From Gallionellales bacterium RIFCSPLOWO2_02_FULL_57_47 (GTDB lineage Bacteria; Pseudomonadota; Gammaproteobacteria; Burkholderiales; Gallionellaceae): 40,471 nucleotides of DNA. The translations under genes were made by a program, and so were the position numbers. This document shows, one piece after another, positions 479 to 10,980 of this stretch. Where the stretch lies: assembly GCA_001801175.1 (NCBI GenBank), contig MGWZ01000114.1:1-40471 (forward strand), in the 5' to 3' direction. Below the pieces are notes generated by a model. It was not told where the DNA came from and did not search any database. It saw only the letters and a program-made list of their open reading frames with translations. Numbering within the stretch: the stretch's first letter is position 1; each line of letters starts with the position of its first letter.

Positions 479-985
479 ATGCGCAAAATTCAATATTGCC
501 TGGCCCTGTTGCTTGCCCTTGTCGTTCATCCGGTGATGGCAGCATCTCCTGCACCGGTACTCTCATACACGAAAATGAAGGTGCAGATTGCGCGCATCCA
601 GATTCAGGATGGTGTCAGTTTTGACGACGCGGTTGAGTCACTCAAACTGCGTGCCAATCAGCACAACCTCAAGTTTGTCGGCGCCAGCCCGCTATACAAG
701 GAAATCGAAGCGTTGACGGGAAAGCCCGCCAGGCGCATGGAAATTTTCAGCTTCTGCGACGGCCTCACGGCGGAGCAGATGATAGCCACCGATCCTTTAA
801 TGATTTCTTTTATGCCTTGTCGTATCGCGATGGTGGAAGATGCACAGGGCAAACGCTGGATCATTTCCATGATGATGGACGAGGCAATGATCCGCGCATT
901 GCCTTCCGACATCCGCAAAGATGCAGAAAGAGTTATGAAGGCCATGAAAGACATGATGCTTGCCGCCAGCAACGGCGACCTCTGA
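479..985 (+). CDS. Exported DUF302-like protein
   Basis: 168-aa protein with a clear signal peptide: a short basic start, a hydrophobic core over residues 6-20, and a likely cleavage after VMA (about residue 21). The mature part resembles DUF302 domains: a segment with SPLYKEIEALTGKPARRMEI and a later strand ending in MVEDAQGKRWI, the usual position of the conserved 'ED..GK.W' strand. The C-terminus is Met-rich and helical. DUF302 proteins have no settled function, and many are periplasmic and linked to redox or sulfur genes. It stands first on a + strand run of sulfur-trafficking genes, but 228 bases separate it from the next one, so cotranscription is uncertain. The start has no strong ribosome-binding site (only AACTTAAACAAAT upstream). 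Confidence 0.7.
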   Translation: MRKIQYCLALLLALVVHPVMAASPAPVLSYTKMKVQIARIQIQDGVSFDDAVESLKLRANQHNLKFVGASPLYKEIEALTGKPARRMEIFSFCDGLTAEQMIATDPLMISFMPCRIAMVEDAQGKRWIISMMMDEAMIRALPSDIRKDAERVMKAMKDMMLAASNGDL

Positions 986-1130
986 AATTGTGCATCGTGC
1001 AGTAAAGTGCACGCACTATAGGCATGACCGTCCAGGTTGTTCCTTGAAAACGGAGGGGTTTGAAAAATAACCCCAATGGGTTACCCCGGTTACCCTTCAT
1101 GGGTATGGACGCATGTAAGCTGATTATTCC

Positions 1131-1136
1131 TATAAT
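1131..1136 (+). promoter_or_regulatory. Possible -10 element (TATAAT) before tusA-like gene
   Basis: A perfect TATAAT lies 77 bases before the ATG of the TusA-like gene, in the 986-1213 gap. No good -35 is seen at 17 bases, so this is only a candidate. A small hairpin AACCCCA/TGGGTT sits upstream at about 1069-1082. Confidence 0.3.
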
Positions 1137-1213
1137 GTTATCCATACGGCTTTATTGAATGCGGTAGCGAATCTGGTATTGACGGGAATTTTAATAATTT
1201 GTGGGAGATGAAC

Positions 1214-1441
1214 ATGAACTTTGATAAAGAATATGATGCCAGCGGCTTGTCCTGTCCTTTGCCTATCCTGAAGACCAAAAAGGCACTCGCCGATATGGCT
1301 TCCGGGCAGGTACTCAAGGTGCTCTCGACCGATAGCGGCTCTGTGAAGGATATGCAGGCATTCGCCGAGCAGACCGGTAATTCCTTGTTGGCTACAGAAG
1401 AGGCTAGCGGGAAATTCACTTTTTACATGAAGAAAAAGTAA
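1214..1441 (+). CDS. tusA: TusA-like sulfur carrier protein
   Basis: 75-aa TusA/SirA-fold protein. The signature CPxP is present as LSCPLPILKTKKAL near residue 12, where the first Cys carries sulfur as a persulfide in the family. The rest follows the usual beta-alpha-beta-alpha pattern (SGQVLKVLSTDSGSVKDM, ending in FTFYMKKK). An in-frame TTG lies at 1199 and an ATG at 1208, but GGGAG at 1203-1207 is correctly spaced for the ATG at 1214, so that start is chosen. In sulfur oxidisers TusA commonly travels with DsrE2 and rhodanese and passes sulfur towards DsrEFH and DsrC; here DsrE2 follows 41 bases later and no rhodanese is present. Its role in the Dsr pathway is inferred from family and context. 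Confidence 0.88.
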   Translation: MNFDKEYDASGLSCPLPILKTKKALADMASGQVLKVLSTDSGSVKDMQAFAEQTGNSLLATEEASGKFTFYMKKK

Positions 1442-1482
1442 GTTATCTGCATCCAACCCAAACCATACTCAAAGGGGAAAGC

Positions 1483-1953
1483 ATGAGCTCTAAAAAAATG
1501 GCAATTATTGCCACCAAAGGCACACTGGATATGGCCTACCCACCATTCATTCTCGCTTCAACCGCCGCCGCTCTGGGCTATGAGGTGCAGGTGTTCTTTA
1601 CCTTCTACGGTTTGCAATTGCTGCGCAAAGACCTGTCCAGCGTAATGATCAGTCCGCTGGCCAACCCTGCGATGCCGATGCCGGTACCGATGCCGGTGAT
1701 GGTGCAAATGCTGCCGGGAATGGAATCCATGGCTACCATGATGATGAAGCAAAAGTTGAAGAAACATGGCGTCGCCTCGCTGGAGGAGTTGCGCGACCTG
1801 TGCCTGGAAGCCGAAGTGAAATTCGTTGCCTGCCAGATGACGGTTGATCTGTTCGAATTCGACAAGAGCGAATTTATCGACAACATCGAATACGGCGGTG
1901 CGGCTACGTTTTTGGGATTTGCCGGAGATACTGATATCTGTCTGTTCGTTTAA
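1483..1953 (+). CDS. dsrE2: DsrE2-like (DsrE/DsrF family) sulfur-relay protein
   Basis: 156-aa protein of the DsrE/DsrF/DsrH fold, DsrE2 branch. It has the typical start MAIIATKGTLDMAYPPFILA, then AALGYEVQVFFTFYG, a central Met/Pro-rich loop (about residues 62-90), and a conserved Cys in KFVACQMTVDLF. This is the usual size and layout of DsrE2, which is encoded next to tusA in many sulfur oxidisers and is thought to take part in sulfane sulfur transfer. No clear transmembrane helix is seen, although the Met/Pro loop is hydrophobic. AAAGGGGAAAGC precedes the ATG with good spacing. It is probably cotranscribed with the TusA-like gene. Confidence 0.88.
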   Translation: MSSKKMAIIATKGTLDMAYPPFILASTAAALGYEVQVFFTFYGLQLLRKDLSSVMISPLANPAMPMPVPMPVMVQMLPGMESMATMMMKQKLKKHGVASLEELRDLCLEAEVKFVACQMTVDLFEFDKSEFIDNIEYGGAATFLGFAGDTDICLFV

Positions 1954-2024
1954 GTCGGCAAGCCGGATTTGCCGTGCAGGGGTAGTGTAGGCATTTGTTA
2001 TATCAATCAACCAGGGAGCTTTTA

Positions 2025-3374
2025 ATGAAGATAAATAAAATTGTCGTTTCGTTGTTCACCGCTGGCTTGATGGCCTCGCCACTCGCTAATGCTACCAACG
2101 GCTACTTTTCGCACGGTTATGGGCTGAAAGCTAAGGGCATGGGTGGCGCGTCGACCGCGATGGTGATCGATACGTTCGGCGGCGCGAACAACCCTGCCAG
2201 CATGGTGTGGGTAGGTGATCGGCTGGACATCGGACTCGATCTCTTCATGCCGAAACGAGAGGTCTCGCGACAAGGAAGTAACACCCCAGTTCCCCCGTTT
2301 CCTGTCGGAACGCCAGCTGGACTGTACGATGGTACGTCCGTGAGCGGCTCGAACCTCTTCTACGTGCCAGAATTTGGTTACAGCAAGCTGATCAATCCGG
2401 ATCTCTTGCTCGGCGTGACAGTCTATGGCAACGGTGGCATGAATACCGACTACGACGCGGGGCTCAACGGCGGGGCGAGCGCGCAGTCGTTCGCGCCTTC
2501 CTGTGCAGGTGCGCCGTCGAACATCCTGTTCGGCTGCGGCAAGTTGGGTGTGGACTTGATGCAGCTCATCATCGCGCCGACTGCCTCCTATAAAATCAAC
2601 GAGAACAATTCGGTGGGAATATCTCCATTGCTTGGCTACCAAAAATTCAAGGTCGACGGCTTACAGGCATTCGAAGGAATGAGCAGCAGCCCCGGCAATG
2701 TCACCAACAATGGCTATGATACCTCGACCGGTTGGGGCGTGCGCTTCGGCTGGCTCAGCAAGCTGTCCGATACCCTAAGCATGGGCGCAGCCTATTCAAG
2801 CCGGATGCGCATGAGCCCCTTTGAAAAGTACAAGGGCCTGTTCGCCGAGGGCGGCGACTTCGATATCCCTGAGAACTACAACATCGGCATTGCTGTCAAG
2901 GCCACGCCGGAAACGACTGTCGCCTTCGATATTCAGCAGATCAATTATTCGGATGTCAAGTCTATTGGCAACGCTGTCAGCAACAGTCTTGCCTCCGCGG
3001 ACGGACTCGGCTCGACCAACGGATCGGGTTTCGGGTGGCGCGACCAGACCGTATACAAGCTGGGCGTCGAATACGCATACAGCACCAGCCTTGTGTTGCG
3101 TGCCGGTTACAACTACGGAAAATCGCCGGTGCGCGGTGACAGCATCGACGATGTGACCTTCAATATCCTCGCGCCGGGGGTGGTGGAGCGGCATCTCACT
3201 CTCGGCACCACTTGGACGCTGGACAACAAGTCGGAGTTGACGGTGTCCTATATGCACGCCTTCAGCAACTCGGTGACCGGCCCGTCGGTTACGTCGCTGC
3301 TTGGCGTCGGCGGCACAGAGACCCTGACGATGAAGCAGAACACCTTGGGCATCGCTTACGGCATGAAGTTATAA
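2025..3374 (+). CDS. FadL/OmpP1-type outer-membrane transport protein
   Basis: 449-aa outer-membrane beta-barrel of the FadL family (usual size 420-460). A signal peptide ends after LANA. The mature N-terminus, TNGYFSHGYGLKAKGMGGAS followed by GGANNPASM, is the characteristic FadL N-terminal plug motif (G-x-KAxGMGGA, NPA). Alternating strands run to the C-terminus, which ends NTLGIAYGMKL. FadL relatives import hydrophobic compounds such as fatty acids or aromatics; the substrate cannot be read from sequence. Its position between tusA/dsrE2 and the dsr region suggests a link to hydrophobic sulfur compounds, but that is inference. The ATG at 2025 is preferred over an upstream in-frame start at 1995 because AGGGAG lies just before it and the signal peptide begins there. 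Confidence 0.88.
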   Translation: MKINKIVVSLFTAGLMASPLANATNGYFSHGYGLKAKGMGGASTAMVIDTFGGANNPASMVWVGDRLDIGLDLFMPKREVSRQGSNTPVPPFPVGTPAGLYDGTSVSGSNLFYVPEFGYSKLINPDLLLGVTVYGNGGMNTDYDAGLNGGASAQSFAPSCAGAPSNILFGCGKLGVDLMQLIIAPTASYKINENNSVGISPLLGYQKFKVDGLQAFEGMSSSPGNVTNNGYDTSTGWGVRFGWLSKLSDTLSMGAAYSSRMRMSPFEKYKGLFAEGGDFDIPENYNIGIAVKATPETTVAFDIQQINYSDVKSIGNAVSNSLASADGLGSTNGSGFGWRDQTVYKLGVEYAYSTSLVLRAGYNYGKSPVRGDSIDDVTFNILAPGVVERHLTLGTTWTLDNKSELTVSYMHAFSNSVTGPSVTSLLGVGGTETLTMKQNTLGIAYGMKL

Positions 3375-3449: not shown

Positions 3450-4328
3450 TTAGGTGTTGGCAATGCGGTCAAGATAGCGTGCCCGAAATAACAGGCGCGG
3501 GGTAGTTCCATTGTCAGCAAAGGCAGCACGGTCGTGCAGCACGTTGTTGCACAGCAGGCCCATGCCTTGTTCCAGGCGCGCGTGGTGGATGTGCGGCGAA
3601 TCAGACGCCAGCAGCTTTTCCAGCATCGCTACAGCAGCCAGTGTGGTTGCATCCTGCTTCCAGACGATGCTGCGAGTGCGTGCGGTATAGCGCATGTGCA
3701 GGCCGCCACTCGCGGGGTCTATGGAAAATACCGGGCCGGTCTGTGCGGCGCGCGCTATACCTTGTTCGTCGGTACGTTCCGGTATGGTCATGGCATCCGG
3801 CGCGGAGAGTGCGCGGATAAAATCGCTATCTTCATCGCGCAACATCAAATAGGCGATTTCGTGATCCATCAGGCGATTCTCGCCGCCCTGTCCGGCACTC
3901 TGGGCGCAATGCAATACCATGCTGCGCACCTGCCGTTCCGGCGGGTTGTAATAGCCGTCGGTGTGCCATTTGATGGCGCGGTCGGTATAGGGAATATAAG
4001 CATTTCGCAGTCCATCGCCAGCGCACACCGTGATGCGTGTTACCCCTTGTTCACTTGCGAGCCAATTCGCATCCATGCGATTCAGGCCGAACTGTTGCCC
4101 AAGTTGGCGAACCGCATTTTCATCGACGCCCTCGGCCAATGATGCATATATCGCCATGTTGCTGCGGCGGCAACATGCCAAAAGCGCGGCGTGCTCTGAA
4201 GCAGTCAATGCACGCGGGTTTTTGATTTCAACGATCAGATCGTCAGTGCTGGTGATGGCATGCGCCAGTTTGTGCTCGCGCCAGCGCAGGTAGGCATCGG
4301 GATTGTCGGGATCGAATGGATTTTGCAT
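3450..4328 (-). CDS. TauD/TfdA-like Fe(II)/2-oxoglutarate dioxygenase
   Basis: 292-aa protein of the TauD/TfdA (clavaminate synthase-like) superfamily. The iron-binding HxD motif is in AIKWHTDGYYNPP (about residue 140), and the distal His is probably in NNVLHDRAAF (about 268), followed by the C-terminal basic stretch TTPRLLFRARYLDR, which supplies the 2-oxoglutarate-binding Arg in the family. Members hydroxylate substrates such as taurine, carnitine precursors or aryl acids; which one applies here is not evident. It is the last gene of the operon divergent from dsrA, so a role on an organosulfur compound is possible, but the sequence alone does not show this. No strong ribosome-binding site is visible before the ATG. 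Confidence 0.85.
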   Translation of the reverse strand: MQNPFDPDNPDAYLRWREHKLAHAITSTDDLIVEIKNPRALTASEHAALLACCRRSNMAIYASLAEGVDENAVRQLGQQFGLNRMDANWLASEQGVTRITVCAGDGLRNAYIPYTDRAIKWHTDGYYNPPERQVRSMVLHCAQSAGQGGENRLMDHEIAYLMLRDEDSDFIRALSAPDAMTIPERTDEQGIARAAQTGPVFSIDPASGGLHMRYTARTRSIVWKQDATTLAAVAMLEKLLASDSPHIHHARLEQGMGLLCNNVLHDRAAFADNGTTPRLLFRARYLDRIANT

Positions 4329-4355
4329 CAGGGGGCCGGCGCGAAACTGCGCAAT

Positions 4356-4952
4356 TTAATCCCCGCTGACCGTTTTGCGGCTGCGTGGTTGCCTCGGCTC
4401 GGTTTCGAACAAGTCGTGCATGGTTTTTTCAACCATGGTAACGGCCTCTGGAGCTTCGATGCCCATCATCTGGTCTATCACCCAGGCGGCATCTTTTTCA
4501 TCCATCACTTCGCGCATACAGTAGCCAAGGTATCGGGTGAACGCAAAATCTGGGCCATTGTTGTTATATTTGAAGTCAGCATATTCTCCCGCACGCTGGT
4601 TAAGCATGTCGATGAAGTACTGCTTGTGCTTTTCAATGCTGTTGCCTATCAATCTGCTCTGGTTTTCAGCCAGGGTTTCCGCCACGCGATTTGCCAGAGC
4701 GCTGGTGAACGCCATGCGATCTTCTGCGGATAATTGGCGATAGGCGATGCGGTCAGCGACTTGAATAAGGAATATCAGAAATTCGCCGAGAAAAGAAAAG
4801 TATTGTGTGCCGATTGCTATTTCAAATTTGGCATTGCGGGTGTTTTTGAGTGCGTTGTCTCCGATGCGCCAGATGACGAAAGCCAGCGCACCCGCAATTT
4901 CCTGAGGTGTTCTTTTTCGCCCATTTTTGAACCAGTTGCTTTTGATCCTCAT
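4356..4952 (-). CDS. Conserved-looking hypothetical protein in the dsr-divergent operon
   Basis: 198-aa protein that I do not recognise. It is mostly alpha-helical, has no signal peptide, and has a basic N-terminus (MRIKSNWFKNGRKR) and a basic C-terminus (RQPRSRKTVSGD). A moderately hydrophobic segment, TQYFSFLGEFLIFLIQVADR (about residues 49-68), might be a membrane-associated helix but is too mixed for a confident transmembrane call. It is followed by helices rich in charged residues. It lies 27 bases upstream of the dioxygenase gene and 58 bases downstream of the double-TusA gene, all on the - strand, so it is probably one transcript with them. The long ORF, codon use and tight packing support it as a real gene. 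Confidence 0.7.
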   Translation of the reverse strand: MRIKSNWFKNGRKRTPQEIAGALAFVIWRIGDNALKNTRNAKFEIAIGTQYFSFLGEFLIFLIQVADRIAYRQLSAEDRMAFTSALANRVAETLAENQSRLIGNSIEKHKQYFIDMLNQRAGEYADFKYNNNGPDFAFTRYLGYCMREVMDEKDAAWVIDQMMGIEAPEAVTMVEKTMHDLFETEPRQPRSRKTVSGD

Positions 4953-5010
4953 GGCTTTTAATGTTCAAACCGATTTTGGCGATCAAATTCGGCGTCCGTC
5001 ACGGGCTCAA

Positions 5011-5496
5011 TCATCCTTTTTGCAGAAAAAACTCATACTCGCCTGAGGATACCTCAATTGTGTCGAGAATCTTCACGCCGGTCATGCCGGCCCAGCCGAC
5101 GATGTCGGATCGTATCCCCGGGCAATTGCTGACAAGCTTGAGAATCTCGCCGGTGTTCATGCCGTTCAGCAGCTTTTTGGCTTCCACAATTGGCCCAGGG
5201 CAGACTACACCGCGAATATCCAGAATTACATTCGCTTTGCGCGTCACTCCTTTGCCCTTCATGATGTAATAGCCTGTGCCGCCATCCGGCATCGCTTCTG
5301 TCCCCAATACGTTGTTGCGGGTCTGTTCCGCCCACGCGAACAGGTCGTCCCGGGTGCCCGGGCAATCCGAGATCAACAACAGCACTTGTTCGTTTTTTAG
5401 ATCGTCGACCACGCGCTTGGCACCGAGCAGCGGAGCGGGGCAGGTCAAGCCGCGCATATCCAGTTTGATATTGGCGTGTAAATTTGGAGTGTTCAT
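5011..5496 (-). CDS. Tandem TusA-TusA sulfur carrier fusion
   Basis: 161-aa protein made of two complete TusA-like domains. Domain 1 (about residues 9-80) carries MRGLTCPAPLLGAKRVVDDL. Domain 2 (about 88-160) carries IRGVVCPGPIVEAKKLLNGM. Each keeps the CPxP sulfur-binding Cys. Each also has a second Cys at matching positions, in SDCPGTRDDLFAWA and SNCPGIRSDIVGWA, which ordinary single TusA proteins such as the one at 1214 lack (there it is TDSGSVKDM). A double carrier could hold two persulfides or disulfide-link internally; this is inference. It lies between a DsrC paralogue and an unknown gene in the - strand operon. The start has an AGGA box at suitable spacing. Confidence 0.88.
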   Translation of the reverse strand: MNTPNLHANIKLDMRGLTCPAPLLGAKRVVDDLKNEQVLLLISDCPGTRDDLFAWAEQTRNNVLGTEAMPDGGTGYYIMKGKGVTRKANVILDIRGVVCPGPIVEAKKLLNGMNTGEILKLVSNCPGIRSDIVGWAGMTGVKILDTIEVSSGEYEFFLQKG

Positions 5497-5531
5497 TTTG
5501 GAATCCTGTCAGTATCTGTATCGTTGTTTGC

Positions 5532-5861
5532 TCAATACCCGCCCTTGCCATATGGCTGAGGTAGTCCGGCTACTTTAGCGCCTTGTTTGGCCGGGCCGGT
5601 GGGAAACAAATCATACAAGGATTTGCTATCCGCTTCAGGCCAGAACTCCTGCACATCTTTCAGCATATTGCGAAAGTTGGGTGTATGGCCATGTTCGCGG
5701 TATTGGTCGCGCATGTAATTGATGACCTGCAAATGCTTGGGTGTCAACTCAATATTTTCTGCTGCGGCAATGACACTTACTATTTCTTCGCTGTAGTCAG
5801 GTTCCAGCAAGTAGCCGTCCGCATCGGTTTCAAGATCTTTACCCGCAATTATGTATCCCAT
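5532..5861 (-). CDS. DsrC/TusE-family protein lacking both C-terminal cysteines
   Basis: 109-aa DsrC-fold protein. It aligns over its full length with the genuine DsrC at 10553, sharing the LPKP/LPQP arm region and the YDLFPTGPAKQGAKVAGLP block (YGLFPYGPGKQACKIAGLP in DsrC). In DsrC the flexible C-terminal arm carries two redox cysteines (99 and 110). Here the first is Ala (QGAK) and the second is Lys (YGKGGY), and no cysteine remains in the protein. It therefore cannot form the DsrC trisulfide. Cysteine-free DsrC relatives are known in sulfur-oxidiser genomes and have been proposed as regulatory or accessory proteins; some DsrC members have been reported to bind DNA. GGAGG six bases before the ATG gives a strong ribosome-binding site. 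Confidence 0.9.
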   Translation of the reverse strand: MGYIIAGKDLETDADGYLLEPDYSEEIVSVIAAAENIELTPKHLQVINYMRDQYREHGHTPNFRNMLKDVQEFWPEADSKSLYDLFPTGPAKQGAKVAGLPQPYGKGGY

Positions 5862-5905
5862 GATTAACCTCCGTTAAATGAAATGTAAAACTTTCCAAGT
5901 CGTTA

Positions 5906-6505
5906 CTACAATCCGGAAATGACTTTGTGAGGTACAAAAATGCCACAACCGAATCGACGCTCTTCTCCCAGCCCTGCATACTGCAATTGCAGGGATGCAT
6001 CCGGTTTCAGGTCATGAACAACCAGACTGTAACCATGGATAACTTGCTGGTCGCCCGCAAGAGTGCGGCGTTTGCCGCAGACCAGATTAGCCACAATATT
6101 CAATTCGCCTAACTGCTTCCTGATGTCGTCCATGAACATCATTTCGTCGCTTACCCCGGTTACCAGTTGTGCATGCAGGGTGGGATATGGCTGAATCGGG
6201 CGAGTCCTGCCTTCTCCTAACTGCAACTGGCTTGAGCCAATCTGCATGGTGCTTCCGGTCAGGCGCGATGCTGCACCGGCCAGTGCCGCCGGCAGGCGCA
6301 GCACCAGCTTGGCGCGTTTGGGAAGCAGCATTCCTTCGTTGCATTCTGCGGTGCGCAACGGCAACACCCCGACAAATTTTTCTTCCGCAAGCTGTGGTAC
6401 ATGGCGCACAATTTCCGCCCACAGCGCAAATGGATAAGCGGCGGGTAGAGTTGTGCCGCCAAGATCGAACACCAGGTCGATCATTTCCGGGATTCCATCA
6501 GCCAT
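5906..6505 (-). CDS. Stand-alone Cas6/Cmx6-like (type I-MYXAN) RAMP-fold protein
   Basis: About 199-aa protein resembling the Cas6/Cmx6 family of CRISPR RNA endoribonucleases. Features I recognise are the N-terminal DLVFDLGG strand, the PAAYPFALWAEIVRHVPQL helix, GVLPLRTAE, the middle YPTLHAQLVTG strand, ICGKRR-like LVCGKRRTLAGD, GYSLVVHDLKPDASLQLQ, and the Gly-rich C-terminal GCGIFVPHK. No CRISPR array and no other cas gene is visible in the window, so the usual role (crRNA processing) is unsupported here. The start is uncertain. The ATG at 6505 overlaps the stop of the upstream 74-aa gene (ATGGCTGA), suggesting translational coupling. An ATG at 6484 would begin directly at the conserved MIDLVFD. 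It is part of the operon divergent from dsrA. Confidence 0.78.
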   Translation of the reverse strand: MADGIPEMIDLVFDLGGTTLPAAYPFALWAEIVRHVPQLAEEKFVGVLPLRTAECNEGMLLPKRAKLVLRLPAALAGAASRLTGSTMQIGSSQLQLGEGRTRPIQPYPTLHAQLVTGVSDEMMFMDDIRKQLGELNIVANLVCGKRRTLAGDQQVIHGYSLVVHDLKPDASLQLQYAGLGEERRFGCGIFVPHKVISGL

Positions 6506-6722
6506 GGGCTGGATGCACTTGAGAATCTGCCCAATGCTGCATGGTGGCCGCCCATTGTTGTGCGGTTGCAGGGTCAATATCGAAAATCGTAAAACGCTTG
6601 CCCTCGCGAATGCGAACACGCAGCAAACTCATTCCGCCTTCGACGTGGTCGATCTGGTGCAATTCAATTTCCTGGCTACCCAAAGGAACTTTGATCTTTA
6701 ATAATTCACGGGTTATTGCCAA
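6498..6722 (-). CDS. Small conserved-looking protein, first gene of the dsr-divergent operon (TTG start)
   Basis: 74-aa soluble protein (IKVPLGSQEIELHQIDHVEG, then LLRVRIREGKRFTIFDIDPA) with no signal peptide and no cysteine. I cannot assign a function. It may belong to a small DUF (possibly DUF6967) that occurs beside Cmx6-like genes in sulfur oxidisers, but I cannot confirm this. It starts with TTG at 6722; GGGAGAG lies five bases upstream on the - strand, which decides the start. Its stop overlaps the ATG of the Cas6-like gene, so the two are probably translated together. A beta-strand-rich N-terminus and a short C-terminal helix (ATAQQWAATMQHWA) suggest a compact domain. Confidence 0.72.
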   Translation of the reverse strand: MAITRELLKIKVPLGSQEIELHQIDHVEGGMSLLRVRIREGKRFTIFDIDPATAQQWAATMQHWADSQVHPAHG

Positions 6723-6781
6723 TTTGTCTCTCCCAGTTGGTTACATAGCATAGTCCATAAGGGATACTCTGCACGAGATTC

Positions 6782-6809
6782 TTGAAGTAGTTAAGTCTAT
6801 CGCTAATAC
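6782..6809 (+). promoter_or_regulatory. Possible sigma70-type promoter for dsrA in the divergent intergenic region
   Basis: TTGAAG (6782-6787) and TAATAC (6804-6809) are separated by 16 bases, about 250 bases before the dsrA ATG. The whole 6723-7065 region is AT-rich, non-coding and shared with the divergent operon, so it must hold both promoters. I see no clear operator palindrome. The match is modest. Confidence 0.3.
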
Positions 6810-7065
6810 TTTTAATATTGAATACTACTCGGGGAAGATAAAGCACTACTCTTTAGGGTTATAGAAAATAGCCGCTAAGGGTGATGGAATGCGAATGTGT
6901 TGCGCCGTAGTATATCAACAATTATTAATATATTAGGCGTGCAGCCGGATTGAAAGCTGTATGATTCAAACGGAGCGCACGAGTTGAAAGTTAGCCCCGT
7001 CTCTGCCGGGTCATTAAATCGATTGCCAGCAGTAAGCCTTGGGCAATGCGACTGAAAGGAAGATT

Positions 7066-8361
7066 ATGGCTAAGAAAATGCATGATACCCCAAACCTTGA
7101 TCAACTCGAGGATGGTCCATGGCCAAGCTTTGTGACCGGCTTGAAAGCGTTGGCAAGAGACAAGGATTACGTGGTCGACCTGCTTGGACAGCTAGAGACA
7201 TCGTACCAAACCAAAAAAGGCTACTGGAAGGGCGGTACGGTCGGCGTGTTCGGTTATGGCGGCGGCGTAATTCCGCGCTTTACCGAACTCAAGGACGAAA
7301 GCGGCCAGCCTGTTTACAAGGATTGTGCCGAGTTTCACACGCTGCGCATCATGCCACCGCCCGGAATGCACTACGACACCAAGGTATTGCGCGACATGTG
7401 CGATGTCTGGGAAAAACATGGTTCCGGGTTGATCGCATTTCACGGCCAGTCCGGGGACATCATGTTCCAGGGCGCAACCACGGAAAATGTGCAAAAAGCC
7501 TTCGACGAAATCAATGAAATGGGTTTTGACATGGGCGGGGCAGGTCCTGCGGTCCGCACTTCCATGTCTTGCGTGGGCGCCGCGCGCTGCGAACAATCCT
7601 GTTACGACGAGGCCAAGGCGCACCGCGCCGTATTGAACACTTTCCTGGATGATATTCATCGCCCGTCATTGCCGTACAAGTTCAAGTTCAAATTTTCCGG
7701 TTGCCCGAACGATTGCATGAATTCCATACAGCGTTCGGATATGGCCGTGATCGGAACCTGGCGCGACAACATTCGCACCGATGAAGCGCTGGCGAAAAAA
7801 TGGTTTGCCAAGCACAGCATGGACCAGTTGGTGAATGACATTGTCGCGCGTTGCCCCACCAAGACTTTCCAGCTTAAGCAAATCAACAGTGTCAGGAGCG
7901 GCCCTACGATCTCCAGTGTTGCCATTAATGACACCCACGCGATAGAAATCGATAACCGTGATTGTGTGCGCTGTATGCATTGCATCAATGTGATGACCGG
8001 AGCGCTGGCCCCCGGCAAGGATAAGGGCGCCACCATTCTGATGGGCGGGAAGCGCACCCTCAAGATTGGCGATCTGATGGGCACCGTAATTGTCCCGTTC
8101 ATGAAACTGGACACGGACGAAGACATGGAAAAGCTGGTCGACCTCGGTCAGCGCACCATCGATTTCTTCGCGGAAAATGCGCTCGAACACGAACGCACCG
8201 GAGAAATGATTGAGCGTATCGGCCTGGCCAGTTTCCTTGAAGCGATGGAAATCGATGTGGATATCAATATGGTTTCCACCCCGCGCACCAACCCATACGT
8301 CCGCACCGATGGCTGGGATGAAGAAGTCGCCAAGATCAACGCCAAAAAGCAGGCTGCCTGA
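7066..8361 (+). CDS. dsrA: Reverse-type dissimilatory sulfite reductase, alpha subunit
   Basis: 431-aa DsrA, normal length. The siroheme-[4Fe-4S] ligands are complete: C169-x5-C175 (CVGAARC, then C179) and C213-x3-C217 (GCPNDC). The inserted ferredoxin domain has C300, C303 and C306 in CVRCMHC, followed by the family's INVMTGALAPGKDKG. In the oxidative pathway DsrAB converts DsrC-bound sulfur to sulfite in the cytoplasm. The ATG at 7066, with AAAGGA at 7055-7060, is chosen over an in-frame TTG at 7039. It is the first gene of the dsr operon; dsrB follows after 11 bases. The oxidative direction is inferred from the dsrEFH and dsrL neighbours and the absence of dsrD. Confidence 0.97.
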   Translation: MAKKMHDTPNLDQLEDGPWPSFVTGLKALARDKDYVVDLLGQLETSYQTKKGYWKGGTVGVFGYGGGVIPRFTELKDESGQPVYKDCAEFHTLRIMPPPGMHYDTKVLRDMCDVWEKHGSGLIAFHGQSGDIMFQGATTENVQKAFDEINEMGFDMGGAGPAVRTSMSCVGAARCEQSCYDEAKAHRAVLNTFLDDIHRPSLPYKFKFKFSGCPNDCMNSIQRSDMAVIGTWRDNIRTDEALAKKWFAKHSMDQLVNDIVARCPTKTFQLKQINSVRSGPTISSVAINDTHAIEIDNRDCVRCMHCINVMTGALAPGKDKGATILMGGKRTLKIGDLMGTVIVPFMKLDTDEDMEKLVDLGQRTIDFFAENALEHERTGEMIERIGLASFLEAMEIDVDINMVSTPRTNPYVRTDGWDEEVAKINAKKQAA

Positions 8362-8372
8362 GGAGATAGACC

Positions 8373-9452
8373 ATGAATGCCCCCGTACAAATGCGCCGCC
8401 CGAAAGAGACCGGAGTGCCCGACAACAAGCAGTATCTGCATCCATTGCTGCTGAAGAACTACGGCAACTGGAAATATCATGACCGCCCTCGCCCGGGCGT
8501 GCTGCACCATGTCTCGCATAGCGGTGACGAGGTCTGGTCGGTCCGCGCCGGCACGCAGCGGCAAATGGACGTTCATACCATCCGGAGATTGTGCGATATC
8601 GCCGACAAATACGCGGAAGGCCATGTGCGGTTTACGATCCGGTCCAATATCGAGTTCATGGTTTCCAGTGCGAAACAGGTTGATCCGCTGGTTGCAGAAC
8701 TGGAAAAGAGCGGATTTCCGGTAGGCGGCACGGGCAATTCGATTTCGATGATCGCACACACACAAGGCTGGTTGCACTGCGACATTCCCGGCACGGATGC
8801 GTCCGGAGCGGTCAAGGCATTGATGGATGAACTGATCGTTGAATTCAGGCGCGAGGAAATGCCAAACCGCGTGCATCTGTCCACGTCCTGCTGCGAAATC
8901 AATTGCGGCGGGCAGGCCGATATTGCGATCGTTATCCAACATACCAAGCCGCCGGTAATCAATCACGACCTCGTGGCCAACGTTTGCGAACGCCCGACTG
9001 TGGTGGCGCGCTGCCCGGTCGCCGCGATTCGTCCGGCGATGGTGAACGGTAAACCTTCCCTGGAAATCGATGAATCGAAATGCATGTGCTGCGGCGCGTG
9101 CTATCCGCCTTGCCCGCCGATGCAAATCAACGATCCGGAAAATTCCAAGCTGGCGATCTGGGTGGGCGGAAAAAATGCCAATGCGCGCAGCAAGCCGACT
9201 TTCATGAAGATGGTTATTTCCGGCCTGCCGAACAATCCGCCGAGATGGCCTGAAGTTTCCGAAGCAGTAAAAAACATTCTGCACGTATACAAGGATGACG
9301 CCCGCCCGTGGGAGCGGATGGCGGACTGGATCGAGCGTATCGGCTGGCCGCGTTTCTTTGAAAAGACCGGGTTGCCATTCACCAAGTATTTGATCGATGA
9401 TTGGCGCGGCTCCCGTGCATCTCTTAATGCTTCAACTCATATTCGCTTCTAA
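8373..9452 (+). CDS. dsrB: Reverse-type dissimilatory sulfite reductase, beta subunit
   Basis: 359-aa DsrB, normal length. It contains the beta-type cluster motif C173-C174-x3-C178 (TSCCEINCGG) and a ferredoxin domain with C237, C240, C243 and C247 (CMCCGACYPPC), needed for electron transfer to the active site. It pairs with DsrA as alpha2-beta2. The C-terminal arm (TGLPFTKYLIDDWRGSR) is also typical. GAGGAG lies seven bases before the ATG. It is directly after dsrA and 29 bases before dsrE. Confidence 0.97.
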   Translation: MNAPVQMRRPKETGVPDNKQYLHPLLLKNYGNWKYHDRPRPGVLHHVSHSGDEVWSVRAGTQRQMDVHTIRRLCDIADKYAEGHVRFTIRSNIEFMVSSAKQVDPLVAELEKSGFPVGGTGNSISMIAHTQGWLHCDIPGTDASGAVKALMDELIVEFRREEMPNRVHLSTSCCEINCGGQADIAIVIQHTKPPVINHDLVANVCERPTVVARCPVAAIRPAMVNGKPSLEIDESKCMCCGACYPPCPPMQINDPENSKLAIWVGGKNANARSKPTFMKMVISGLPNNPPRWPEVSEAVKNILHVYKDDARPWERMADWIERIGWPRFFEKTGLPFTKYLIDDWRGSRASLNASTHIRF

Positions 9453-9481
9453 CCGTTGATATCTGAATTGGGAGTGGCCGC

Positions 9482-9841
9482 ATGAAATTTGGCATTGTCG
9501 TTAACGAAGGACCCTACCAGCATCAAGCCAGCGATACGGCGTATTTATTCTCCAAGGCGGCCATTGAAAAAGGCCATGAGGTATGGCGCGTATTTTTCTA
9601 TCACGACGGGGTGAATAACTCCTCCAAGCTGACAGAGCCGCCGCAGGATGACCGCCATATAGTGAACCGCTGGAGCAAACTCAACGAGGAACATGGCGTG
9701 GATCTGGTGGTTTGCGTCGCTGCGGCATTACGCCGCGGCATCAAGGAAGAAAATCTGGCGAAGGGCTTCCGAATTTCCGGGCTGGGCCAGTTAACGGAAG
9801 CGGGAATTAAAACCGACCGTCTGGTTGTGTTTGGCGATTAG
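9482..9841 (+). CDS. dsrE: DsrE, sulfurtransferase subunit of DsrEFH
   Basis: 119-aa DsrE. It is homologous to the TusD subunit of the TusBCD complex and is a cytoplasmic persulfide carrier. The catalytic cysteine is C78 (DLVVCVAAALRRGI), at the same number as the known active Cys of Allochromatium DsrE. The start MKFGIVVNEGPYQHQASDTA is the usual nucleotide-fold-like strand and loop. DsrEFH forms a hexamer that passes sulfur from TusA to DsrC. GGGAG precedes the ATG. dsrF begins ten bases after the stop. Confidence 0.95.
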   Translation: MKFGIVVNEGPYQHQASDTAYLFSKAAIEKGHEVWRVFFYHDGVNNSSKLTEPPQDDRHIVNRWSKLNEEHGVDLVVCVAAALRRGIKEENLAKGFRISGLGQLTEAGIKTDRLVVFGD

Positions 9842-9851
9842 GGGGAACGAG

Positions 9852-10217
9852 ATGAGTGAAATCAAGAAATTCATGTTCGTTAACCGCAAGGCTCCGCACG
9901 GCACAATTTATGCGCTGGAGTCGCTCGAAGTGGTACTGATTACCGCAGCGTTTGACCAGGACGTTTCCCTGGTGTTTTTGGACGATGGCGTATATCAGCT
10001 GAAAAAGGGCCAGCAGACCAAGGGTATCGAAACCAAAAATTTCTCATCTGCTTACCGTGCGCTGGAAGGCTACGACATCGAGAAGTTATATGTCGAGAAA
10101 GAATCGCTGGAATTGCGCGGTATCAGTGAAGAAGATTTGCTGGTGGATGTTACCGTGCTTGGCCGTGCTGAAATGGGCGAATTGATGGATCAGCAGGATG
10201 TGATCTTGAGTTTCTAA
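9852..10217 (+). CDS. dsrF: DsrF subunit of DsrEFH
   Basis: 121-aa DsrF, the TusC homologue. It shows the conserved start KKFMFVNRKAPHGTIYALES and DVSLVFLDDGVYQLKKGQQT. DsrF has no catalytic Cys in the family, and none is seen here. The ATG at 9852 follows GGGGGAACGAG, so it is preferred to an upstream in-frame start at 9825 that would overlap dsrE. The stop overlaps an ATG of the next frame, and dsrH follows. Confidence 0.95.
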   Translation: MSEIKKFMFVNRKAPHGTIYALESLEVVLITAAFDQDVSLVFLDDGVYQLKKGQQTKGIETKNFSSAYRALEGYDIEKLYVEKESLELRGISEEDLLVDVTVLGRAEMGELMDQQDVILSF

Positions 10218-10231
10218 TGGAGAACCGTCAA

Positions 10232-10528
10232 ATGTTGCATATCATCAACAAATCTCCGCTGGCGAATTGCTCGCTGGATAGCTGTTTGCGCGTTGCCCAA
10301 CCGGGAGATATTCTGCTTATCGAAGACGCCATTTATGCCGCCACAATCGGTAATGCGTTTGAAGGCAAGTTACGCGAGGCGATGGGACGTTTCAAAATCT
10401 ACGTTTTGCAACCTGATGTCGATGCACGAGGATTCACCGGCCGCGTCATCGAAGGAGTTTCACCTGTGGATTACAGTGGTTTCGTCGAACTCACGACCAC
10501 AAATAAAACCTGCCAATCCTGGCTCTAA
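10232..10528 (+). CDS. dsrH: DsrH subunit of DsrEFH
   Basis: 98-aa DsrH, the TusB homologue. It starts MLHIINKSPLANCSLDSCLR; C18 aligns with Cys20 of Allochromatium DsrH, a residue implicated in the complex. A second nearby Cys (C13) is extra. An upstream ATG at 10217 overlaps the dsrF stop (TAATG), but GGAG at 10219-10222 and the family N-terminus support 10232. It completes the DsrEFH set and is followed after 24 bases by dsrC. Confidence 0.93.
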   Translation: MLHIINKSPLANCSLDSCLRVAQPGDILLIEDAIYAATIGNAFEGKLREAMGRFKIYVLQPDVDARGFTGRVIEGVSPVDYSGFVELTTTNKTCQSWL

Positions 10529-10552: not shown

Positions 10553-10888
10553 ATGGCAAGCATTGAAGTTGACGGCAAGGCTTATGAAACGGATGAAGAG
10601 GGTTACCTTACCAATCTGGCCGACTGGAATACCGAAGTAGCAAACTACATCGCGAAAACAGAAAATATCAACATGACCGATCAGCATTGGGAAGTGGTCA
10701 ATTTTTTGCGTGAATATTTTGAGGAATATCAGATTGCGCCGGCAGTTCGTGTGTTGACCAAGGCCATCGGCAAGAGGTTTGGCGCGGAAAAGGGCACCAG
10801 CGAATATCTGTATGGACTGTTCCCATACGGCCCGGGCAAACAGGCATGCAAGATTGCCGGGTTGCCGAAACCGACAGGCTGCATTTGA
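10553..10888 (+). CDS. dsrC: DsrC, sulfur-carrier substrate of DsrAB
   Basis: 111-aa DsrC. Both functional cysteines of the C-terminal arm are present: C99 (KQACKIAG) and the penultimate C110 (PTGCI). In the family C110 receives sulfur from DsrEFH, and together the two cysteines bracket the trisulfide that DsrAB and DsrMKJOP work on. AAGGAG lies eight bases before the ATG. Codon use is strong and regular, as expected for an abundant protein. The - strand paralogue at 5532 lacks both cysteines. Confidence 0.97.
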   Translation: MASIEVDGKAYETDEEGYLTNLADWNTEVANYIAKTENINMTDQHWEVVNFLREYFEEYQIAPAVRVLTKAIGKRFGAEKGTSEYLYGLFPYGPGKQACKIAGLPKPTGCI

Positions 10889-10980
10889 TTCGGAAGGACA
10901 GAAGGCAGATGAAAGAAAAGCAGGTTCTGAACATTGATTCTGCTTTCTGACAACTGGCAACTGACCCCCGCCCCCTGACA

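Follow-up and report, generated by a model that had tools for sequence, protein, structure and literature searches.

We analysed a stretch of 40,471 nucleotides, contig MGWZ01000114.1 of Gallionellales bacterium RIFCSPLOWO2_02_FULL_57_47 (class Gammaproteobacteria, order Burkholderiales), hereafter the window, and focused on an operon divergent from dsrA, a gene of sulfur oxidation by reverse dissimilatory sulfite reductase (rDsr). The operon joins a gene for a Cas6-like protein to genes for a DsrC-like protein without cysteine, a sulfurtransferase and a TauD-like dioxygenase. The results showed that a core of this gene set is conserved in relatives and co-occurs with dsrA, that the C-terminal cysteines of DsrC are missing from the DsrC-like protein, and that the Cas6-like gene has no CRISPR (clustered regularly interspaced short palindromic repeats) context. 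We read the operon as an accessory module of rDsr whose domesticated Cas6 would act at the RNA level, and give this reading a probability of roughly 0.45. That the genes form a dedicated rDsr module is, taken by itself, very probable.

Layout of the operon

The ORF (open reading frame) list and family scans gave six closely packed minus-strand ORFs at 6722-3450, divergent from dsrA (7066):

6498..6722, minus strand: DUF6967 small protein, 74 aa, TTG start (PF22295 1.6e-29, 102 bits against a cut-off of 27)
5906..6505, minus strand: Cas6-like protein, 199 aa, ATG start (PF09559 1.5e-54; TIGR02807 over cut-off)
5532..5861, minus strand: cysteine-free DsrC-like protein, C-terminus GKGGY (PF04358 2e-32; TIGR03342 over cut-off)
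5011..5496, minus strand: tandem TusA, CP.P cysteine motif in both domains (PF01206 in two stretches, 1.4e-34)
4356..4952, minus strand: unclassified all-helical protein, 198 aa (no family match)
3450..4328, minus strand: TauD-like Fe(II)/2-oxoglutarate dioxygenase, WHTD and distal LHDR (PF02668 4.3e-17)
6723..7065, no strand: divergent intergenic region between the operon and dsrA (from coordinates)
7066..8361, plus strand: dsrA, the divergent neighbour (TIGR02064 504.9 bits, over cut-off)

A sequence-only reading had described six minus-strand genes running away from dsrA, with short gaps and one overlap, and this description held. All ORFs lie where it had put them, and those to which it had given a family belong to that family; its 74-aa protein belongs to DUF6967, which it had not named. 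The first two genes (DUF6967 and Cas6-like) overlap by 8 bases, and the remaining gaps are 44, 35, 58 and 27 bases. A GGGAGAGA stretch stands before the TTG start of the DUF6967 gene. For the Cas6-like gene, a longer GTG ORF from 6619 is also listed, and the ATG version matches its families from residue 7-9. A sigma-70 scan returned 4 promoter-like sites against a shuffle mean of 4.0, showing no excess.

Co-occurrence with dsrA

We searched 274 genomes of the window's class for cas6 with TIGR02807 and for dsrA with TIGR02064. The two genes occurred jointly in 87 genomes and were both absent from 176; 4 had only cas6 and 7 had only dsrA (Fisher 1.9e-57, which is not a true probability because the genomes are related and kinship is uncorrected). 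The two genes were thus joint in 87 of the 98 genomes having either, and most misses were broken contigs. In all 4 cas6-only genomes, cas6 and tauD lie on a contig that breaks off no more than about 320 nt from tauD, on the side where dsrA would be expected. Among the dsrA-only genomes, G070, G079, G110 and G207 have a dsrA start within about 360 nt of a contig edge, and G123 holds tauD and the small gene described below, with cas6 cut off; in G238 dsrA is a fragment. TIGR02807 matched in 91 of the 274 genomes, once in each except G264, where two pieces in overlapping ORFs look like one broken gene. The 94 genomes counted for dsrA had matches at E <= 1e-50, plus the G238 fragment at 6e-33; 87 of the 94 matches pass the family cut-off, and weaker matches elsewhere resemble other sulfite reductases.

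Of 150 genomes drawn from the window's order, 25 contained cas6. The results showed dsrA in 25 of 25 cas6-bearing genomes versus 0 of 20 cas6-less genomes tested (of 125 cas6-less in the draw), and G662, of the same genus as the window, has neither gene. When the draw was made from the phylum, dsrA was present in 52 of 299 genomes and cas6 in exactly 4 of those 52, all from the window's order. The genes also stay together in genomes where they lie apart. In G109, the distance between cas6 and dsrA is about 41 kb, with the small gene elsewhere; in G226, cas6 is far from dsr; in G057, the cas6 and dsr clusters are on different long contigs. Both cas6 and dsr are kept in each. These results show that the module is tied to dsr in the window's class.

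Gene order in relatives

We then compared gene order in 80 named loci, the best 80 of 158 relatives from one contig scan, which include Thioalkalivibrio, Thiohalobacter, Thiothrix, Thiogranum, Thioploca and many other Gammaproteobacteria. By profiles, dsrA is divergent in 60 of the 80. The tauD gene stands upstream of cas6 in 69 and a small acidic gene in 76, and the cysteine-free DsrC gene follows cas6 on the same strand in 67 and lies on the opposite strand in 4 more. One layout of dsrA, tauD, small gene, cas6 and DsrC-like gene is found in 54 of the 80. The gene set recurs across genera and families, in the same order at identities of 26-38% to the window protein. Twenty named loci are without dsrA, most of them cut short. 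In six (L045, L058, L059, L065, L090 and L098) it is absent despite full upstream flanks, and in L047, L082 and L091 it is absent with 2-6 kb beyond tauD. L045 carries dsrE-dsrK; the other five with full flanks are Thiothrix, Marithrix, Parabeggiatoa and Thioploca records. When the same gene order was looked for, as the sequence-only reading had proposed, the related set was recovered in 54 of 80 loci, and at least 9 of the 80, with enough upstream sequence, have cas6 without an adjoining dsrA.

Within the window's order, the sequence DUF6967, cas6, cysteine-free DsrC, 198-aa gene and tauD holds in 26 of 26 loci as far as the genes are present: cas6, the DsrC-like gene and the 198-aa gene in 26 each, DUF6967 in 25 and tauD in 21. 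The idea of a system would have failed had the genes been scattered in relatives. They are not, and their order beside dsrA is kept in all 26 order loci, so the comparative evidence indicates that the system is real. In the wider class, a different small gene stands where the order loci have DUF6967. The six-gene combination as first described is lineage-specific, and in the order the TusA slot is more often filled by a rhodanese; the class-wide core consists of TauD, a small protein, the Cas6-like protein and the cysteine-free DsrC.

The Cas6-like protein and CRISPR context

The Cas6-like protein scored 135.1 bits with TIGR02807 (cut-off 98.85) and 185.3 with PF09559 (cut-off 26.7), and also matched PADLOC Cas6 models. 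Its nearest solved relative is the Cas6 of a type I-B CRISPR-associated transposon (CAST; profile E 7e-26), and its AlphaFold (AF2) model, with a predicted local distance difference test (pLDDT) of 92.0, matched 8fcu_B at a template modelling (TM) score of 0.89 and other Cas6 structures too. It thus has in common with Cmx6/type I-MYXAN and type I-B CAST Cas6 the TIGR02807/PF09559 family, the predicted fold and a glycine-rich loop.

Conservation was counted in 135 aligned sequences, 26 from the order and 109 others from the class. The glycine-rich loop, which the window protein retains as GLGEERRFGCGIFVPHK, is nearly invariant (GxG...GCGxF; glycines 98-100%, loop C and F 91-97%). Of the 109 class sequences, 98% have the histidine of an LPxDHA motif and 94% a second histidine (GVH); among the 26 order sequences, 18 have the first and 17 the second. 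At the LPxDHA site, the Cmx6 proteins from three cyanobacterial plasmids have an aligned DHN, and a fourth (L234) shows DHN in its full sequence; by this analogy, the LPxDHA histidine may be catalytic. The DH motif is common to the plasmid Cmx6 proteins and most dsr-linked relatives, whereas the window copy is without that histidine.

A tree was built from 62 Cas6 proteins: 32 class rows (up to 30 random plus fixed ones, with three truncated loci left out), 26 from the order and 4 from plasmids. A branch with support 100/99 splits the 58 dsr-linked proteins from the 4 plasmid ones, which is in keeping with a single recruitment, as far as four outsiders, which are few, and an unsettled bootstrap can suggest. 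Three of the four opened plasmid Cmx6 relatives adjoin cas3 and cmx8 or cas8a1, unlike the dsr-linked gene, which has no such neighbours. The fourth, L234 (Gloeobacter morelensis plasmid pGMOR1, 3977-7521), is a Cmx6-annotated Cas6 without annotated cas neighbours. Beside it lie a gene of the phosphoadenosine phosphosulfate reductase family and a cupin, and it is perhaps another non-CRISPR use.

No other cas family was found among the nine window proteins scanned. An array scan (an exact 20-mer occurring three times at 48-100 nt spacing) detected no CRISPR array, either in the window or in any of the 80 named loci, an array-like repeat in L080 being rejected as a minisatellite. No cas1 match was present in 48 of the 91 cas6 genomes, and the co-occurrence of cas6 with cas1 was weak (43 of 91 versus 62 of 183, p 0.035). 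The opened CRISPR locus in the window's genome (contig C9) is of type I-C, with Cas5c, Cas7 and Cas8c; the same genome has a second cas1 match. Type I-C systems with Cas5c mature their own CRISPR RNA. The description of this protein as CRISPR-type thus stands for its family, by sequence and predicted fold, and not for its context, and the protein very probably takes no part in CRISPR work.

The cysteine-free DsrC-like protein

The DsrC-like protein of the window has no cysteine anywhere in its sequence. It nevertheless scored 96.3 bits with TIGR03342 (cut-off 53.5) and matched the PDB DsrC 1yx3 at 1.4e-17, sharing the family profile of the DsrC/TusE/DsvC carriers. Unlike these carriers, it has both C-terminal cysteine positions replaced, a fixed KGGY end and a Cas6-like partner gene. 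Among the 116 best-scoring DsrC-like ORFs, 115 end in KGGY and the remaining one is cut short, a count that leans that way because proteins with a GGY end were used to build the profile. The dsr-operon DsrC proteins of the same set end in TGCV or TGCI in 95 of 97. Within their last 105 residues, 105 of these ORFs have no cysteine, 10 have one and 1 has two. The unfiltered set gave the same picture, with 0 cysteines in the last 40 aa of all 71 DsrC-like ORFs near cas6 (three are pieces without a true C-terminus). The DsrC-like protein, having no cysteine, therefore cannot relay sulfur by DsrC chemistry.

A cysteine-free DsrC group was reportedly given the name RspA by Venceslau et al. in 2014, and the window protein is putatively RspA-like. 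In the available passages of PMC5944118, a DsrC-like gene, THSYN_22565, is numbered close to the dsr genes THSYN_22480-22545. Those of PMC11267869 report for Alvin_1508, which belongs to the TusE/DsrC family, a drop in expression of about 7-fold together with dsr; we set it aside as no more than a candidate for the cysteine-free DsrC of Allochromatium vinosum.

The other proteins of the operon

In the 26 order loci, the slot between the DsrC-like and 198-aa genes holds a rhodanese in 15, a tandem TusA in 8, neither in 3 and both in 0. Active-site motifs are kept throughout: all 15 rhodaneses have CGSG[VAI]T, and all 8 tandem TusA proteins have at least two C[PRS].P motifs. For the slot rhodanese, the closest NCBIfam model is 3-mercaptopyruvate sulfurtransferase (147.7 bits, below the equivalog cut-off of 250). 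The slot proteins thus keep the active-site cysteines of TusA and of rhodanese / 3-mercaptopyruvate sulfurtransferase, but differ from the known proteins in that the TusA domains stand in tandem in one ORF and that two families replace each other. That two unrelated sulfurtransferases occupy one slot points to a need for sulfur transfer.

The TauD-like protein shares PF02668 and the iron-binding motif with TauD/TfdA, gamma-butyrobetaine and TmpA-type dioxygenases. Of 107 relatives, 103 carry WHxD and 95 show the distal H.R pattern; the 4 that are missing WHxD are ORFs truncated by a contig end. The protein matched the PDB entry for TmpA, 6npb, at 9e-05. Unlike TauD/TfdA-type enzymes with a named substrate, it falls far under every NCBIfam equivalog cut-off touched, the best score being 38.7 bits against a cut-off of 400.

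The 198-aa protein matched no Pfam family and no NCBIfam family over cut-off. Its AF2 model has six helices (pLDDT 90.9), and no convincing PDB relative was found for the family (best match E 0.53); judged by this model, the family (the window protein and 35 relatives) may perhaps have a fold without a solved member.

DUF6967 is a known family of unknown function. It also occurs in L117 (G223) and L116 (G106), from genomes without a dsrA or cas6 match, where it adjoins ORFs that on our own reading resemble ribosomal proteins L28 and L33; the family therefore lives also outside the module. The small acidic protein of the wider class (about 62 aa, e.g. L111:9744-9929) is conserved just upstream of cas6, and the single member scanned had no Pfam or NCBIfam match. 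Of the 274 class genomes, 80 have its gene, and 79 of these also have cas6; in the remaining one, G123, cas6 is cut off. A comparison of the small acidic protein with DUF6967 gave an hhalign probability of 7% (P 0.005), and G033 carries both.

Several further genes lie nearby. In the window, plus-strand genes just past the operon (479-3374) encode a DUF302 protein, another TusA and DsrE2 (NF047629 over cut-off), together with a 459-aa ORF that by eye has the look of an outer-membrane protein. In 52 of the 80 named loci, the gene after the DsrC-like one belongs to another small family (MSDKQ...MLEMQKKF, e.g. L033:11427-11645). Farther on, at 2-6 kb downstream, many named loci have genes for a DUF6866 protein (33 loci) and for a PKHD-type 2-oxoglutarate oxygenase, as well as another ORF that by eye resembles a 2-oxoglutarate oxygenase.

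The search for an RNA target and the regulation of dsr

We searched the dsr side of the window for an RNA on which the Cas6-like protein could act. The features beyond dsrA are as follows:

8373..10528, plus strand: dsrB, dsrE, dsrF and dsrH (ORFs; relatives show similar ORFs in the same order)
10553..10888, plus strand: canonical dsrC, both C-terminal cysteines (KQAC...TGCI; sequence and profile)
10889..10980, plus strand: dsrC-dsrM spacer, moderate hairpin z -2.74 (folding test)

The names dsrB, dsrE, dsrF and dsrH are putative and follow gene order. The stretch 6723-6850 on the minus strand is not unusually folded (z 1.01). The dsrA leader was rejected as a structured RNA: at 6920-7065 on the plus strand it is not unusually folded (z 0.65), and the dsrA upstream sequences of relatives are unalignable by eye past promoter-like parts.

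The dsrC-dsrM hairpin was considered as a Cas6 cutting site. In class loci outside the order, 59 of 61 spacers had a best 60-nt folding free energy (dG) of -15 or lower; loci that did not show both genes on the same strand, or in which the two were more than 400 nt apart, had been dropped. Among 25 order loci, loss of histidine 406 coincided with loss of the hairpin (Fisher 0.003). In a DsrA-DsrB-DsrK tree, the joint loss comes down to one clade, in which the window keeps its hairpin, plus L210. The counter-examples are L162 and L209, which lost the histidine and kept the hairpin, and L163, which shows the reverse. When gaps under 40 nt were left out, spacers with z <= -2 made up 45 of 67 in the class, 12 of 18 in the order and 3 of 5 among the measurable cas6-less dsr loci (20 fetched). 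With about two joint losses against three counter-examples, and with the cas6-less controls, the hairpin was rejected as evidence, and with it the proposed cutting site. The best spacer hairpins (from the order and one in three of the rest) shared no common sequence by eye. Hairpins follow dsrC in most long-spacer loci, with or without cas6, and in 6 of the 8 order loci with a tandem TusA the dsrC-dsrM spacer is only 9-33 nt and has no hairpin. As these searches yielded no RNA target, the argument for action on RNA comes from the protein family, which makes it somewhat probable that the Cas6-like protein acts on RNA.

Palindromes of the form A[TC][CT]CC-N3-6-GG[GA][AT]T (e.g. ATCCCATTTGGGAT) stand 110-293 nt before the dsrA start, as in L066, L060, L095 and L107. 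They were counted in the 65 of 71 upstream regions that were kept, the start codon being doubtful in 6. With a pattern chosen after looking, they occurred in 20 of 45 class loci outside the order, where shuffling gave a mean of 1.1 and a maximum of 6, and in 5 of 20 order loci, where it gave a mean of 0.5 and a maximum of 4. By eye, order loci also show related forms, TACCC..GGGTA, and the window has a half-site-like GGGTTAT near 6855-6865. On this sequence pattern, the palindromes are possibly operators of a shared regulator.

In the published passages available, dsrEFH and dsrC transcript levels stand above dsrA on sulfide (PMC3397948), DsrC binds DNA upstream of the dsr cluster (PMC5944118), dsr is transcribed as one element with an extra dsrC promoter (PMC11267869), and dsrC is the most abundant sulfur mRNA in one symbiont (PMC7787665, citing others). 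The passages on dsr regulation in A. vinosum thus report unequal dsrA, dsrEFH and dsrC levels (PMC3397948) and DsrC-DNA binding (PMC5944118), and name no Cas6-like factor.

Proposed mechanism and alternatives

In the reading that we prefer, a Cas6 gone from CRISPR would serve rDsr and would bind RNA through its kept glycine-rich loop. The Cas6-like proteins of most relatives, which have the Cmx6-type histidine, may cut RNA, and the window copy, with that histidine lost, would likely only bind it. The cysteine-free DsrC-like protein would probably replace DsrC at a DsrC partner, and the complex would respond to DsrC or sulfur supply. A sulfurtransferase (tandem TusA here, rhodanese in sister lineages) would feed in the sulfur state, and the TauD-like enzyme, dependent on 2-oxoglutarate and O2, the oxygen state. 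The output would be an adjustment of dsr expression, perhaps giving unequal dsrA, dsrEFH and dsrC message from one operon. RNA binding, dsr as the target and sensing are what we infer. The sequence-only reading had likewise put forward post-transcriptional control, with the RNA-binding protein and the DsrC-like protein as sensors of sulfur-carrier state, and such control of dsr is plausible. It is unlikely, though possible, that dsr RNA is the target, and the full picture, in which a once-recruited Cas6 is an RNA factor that sets dsr message amounts, with the DsrC mimic as gauge and the sulfurtransferase and O2-dependent hydroxylase as inputs, is rather doubtful.

Several results weigh against the proposed RNA-level module. 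G211 has dsrA with its upstream sequence and no cas6, and looks like a real exception. Outside the window's class, cas6 was found in 0 of 48 dsrA genomes, so its presence is not a requirement of dsr. The number 48 overstates the weight of this comparison, since many of those genomes may not be sulfur oxidisers: dsrE was beside dsrB in only 6 of 20 opened dsrA loci (from 19 of the 48 genomes). Some named loci have cas6 without an adjoining dsrA, as described above. The window protein has Y and L at the two conserved histidine positions, its dsrA leader is not unusually folded, the window has no Rfam match, and the dsrC-dsrM hairpin is present in cas6-less dsr loci as well. Finally, the published dsr passages available mention no Cas6-like gene beside dsr, and those of PMC10952691 and PMC11636981 contain nothing on the operon.

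The main rival is a module that works through proteins only. The DsrC-like protein would be a decoy, placeholder or assembly factor at DsrAB, DsrEFH or DsrK, with the Cas6 fold as a scaffold that takes no part in RNA work and TauD hydroxylating a partner. This account agrees with a DsrC-like protein that keeps the family profile but has lost both cysteine positions and ends in a fixed KGGY, which suggests a docking tail, with the loss of the conserved histidines in the window Cas6-like protein and with the failure to find an RNA target. However, the glycine-rich RNA-binding loop is among the best-kept stretches of the Cas6 family, and a Cmx6-shared histidine in 98% of the 109 class sequences would be odd for a mere scaffold. 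We regard the protein-only account as a serious one that is nonetheless unlikely.

A system for thiolation or hydroxylation of RNA is improbable. Here a DsrC/TusE-type relay with TusA or rhodanese as donor would act on an RNA (tRNA) presented by the Cas6-like protein, and TauD would modify it. TusA and TusE act in tRNA thiolation of other bacteria, an RNA-binding family lies between such genes here, and two unrelated families fill the sulfurtransferase slot. Yet the DsrC-like protein has no cysteine on which to carry sulfur, and the presence of the genes tracks dsrA rather than general tRNA needs.

Linked inheritance, in which the genes travel with dsr by adjacency and share no work, appears quite improbable. 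The association was found only within one class, and the Cas6-like tree separates the class groups much as kinship would. Against this, cas6 and dsr are both kept although far apart in G109, G226 and G057, the gene order is kept at 26-38% identity, and the slot has been refilled by another sulfurtransferase.

CRISPR RNA maturation in trans, with an orphan Cas6 serving a CRISPR locus elsewhere in the genome, would fit the matches over the NCBI and Pfam cut-offs and to PADLOC models and the weak cas1 co-occurrence, but it is close to dismissed by the 48 of 91 cas6 genomes without a cas1 match, the lack of an array in the window and the 80 named loci, the type I-C locus with Cas5c opened in the window's genome and the loss of the Cmx6-shared histidine from the window copy.

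Significance

The sequence-only reading knew of no described system with this combination, and we likewise found no description in the open literature, which was the scope of the search, apart from the single DsrC-like gene THSYN_22565 that a genome paper numbers near dsr (PMC5944118). A gene set that co-occurs with dsrA in well-studied rDsr sulfur oxidation thus appears there as undescribed. The NCBI family model labels such genes as type I-MYXAN CRISPR, which would lead to CRISPR systems being miscounted in sulfur oxidisers. Were the module to act on dsr RNA or on DsrAB, it would provide a lever on the question of how a single dsr operon gives such different amounts of DsrA, DsrEFH and DsrC. 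If the reading of a domesticated Cas6 acting on RNA is true, it would represent a Cas protein taken over for metabolism and a CRISPR-derived module of post-transcriptional control in energy metabolism.

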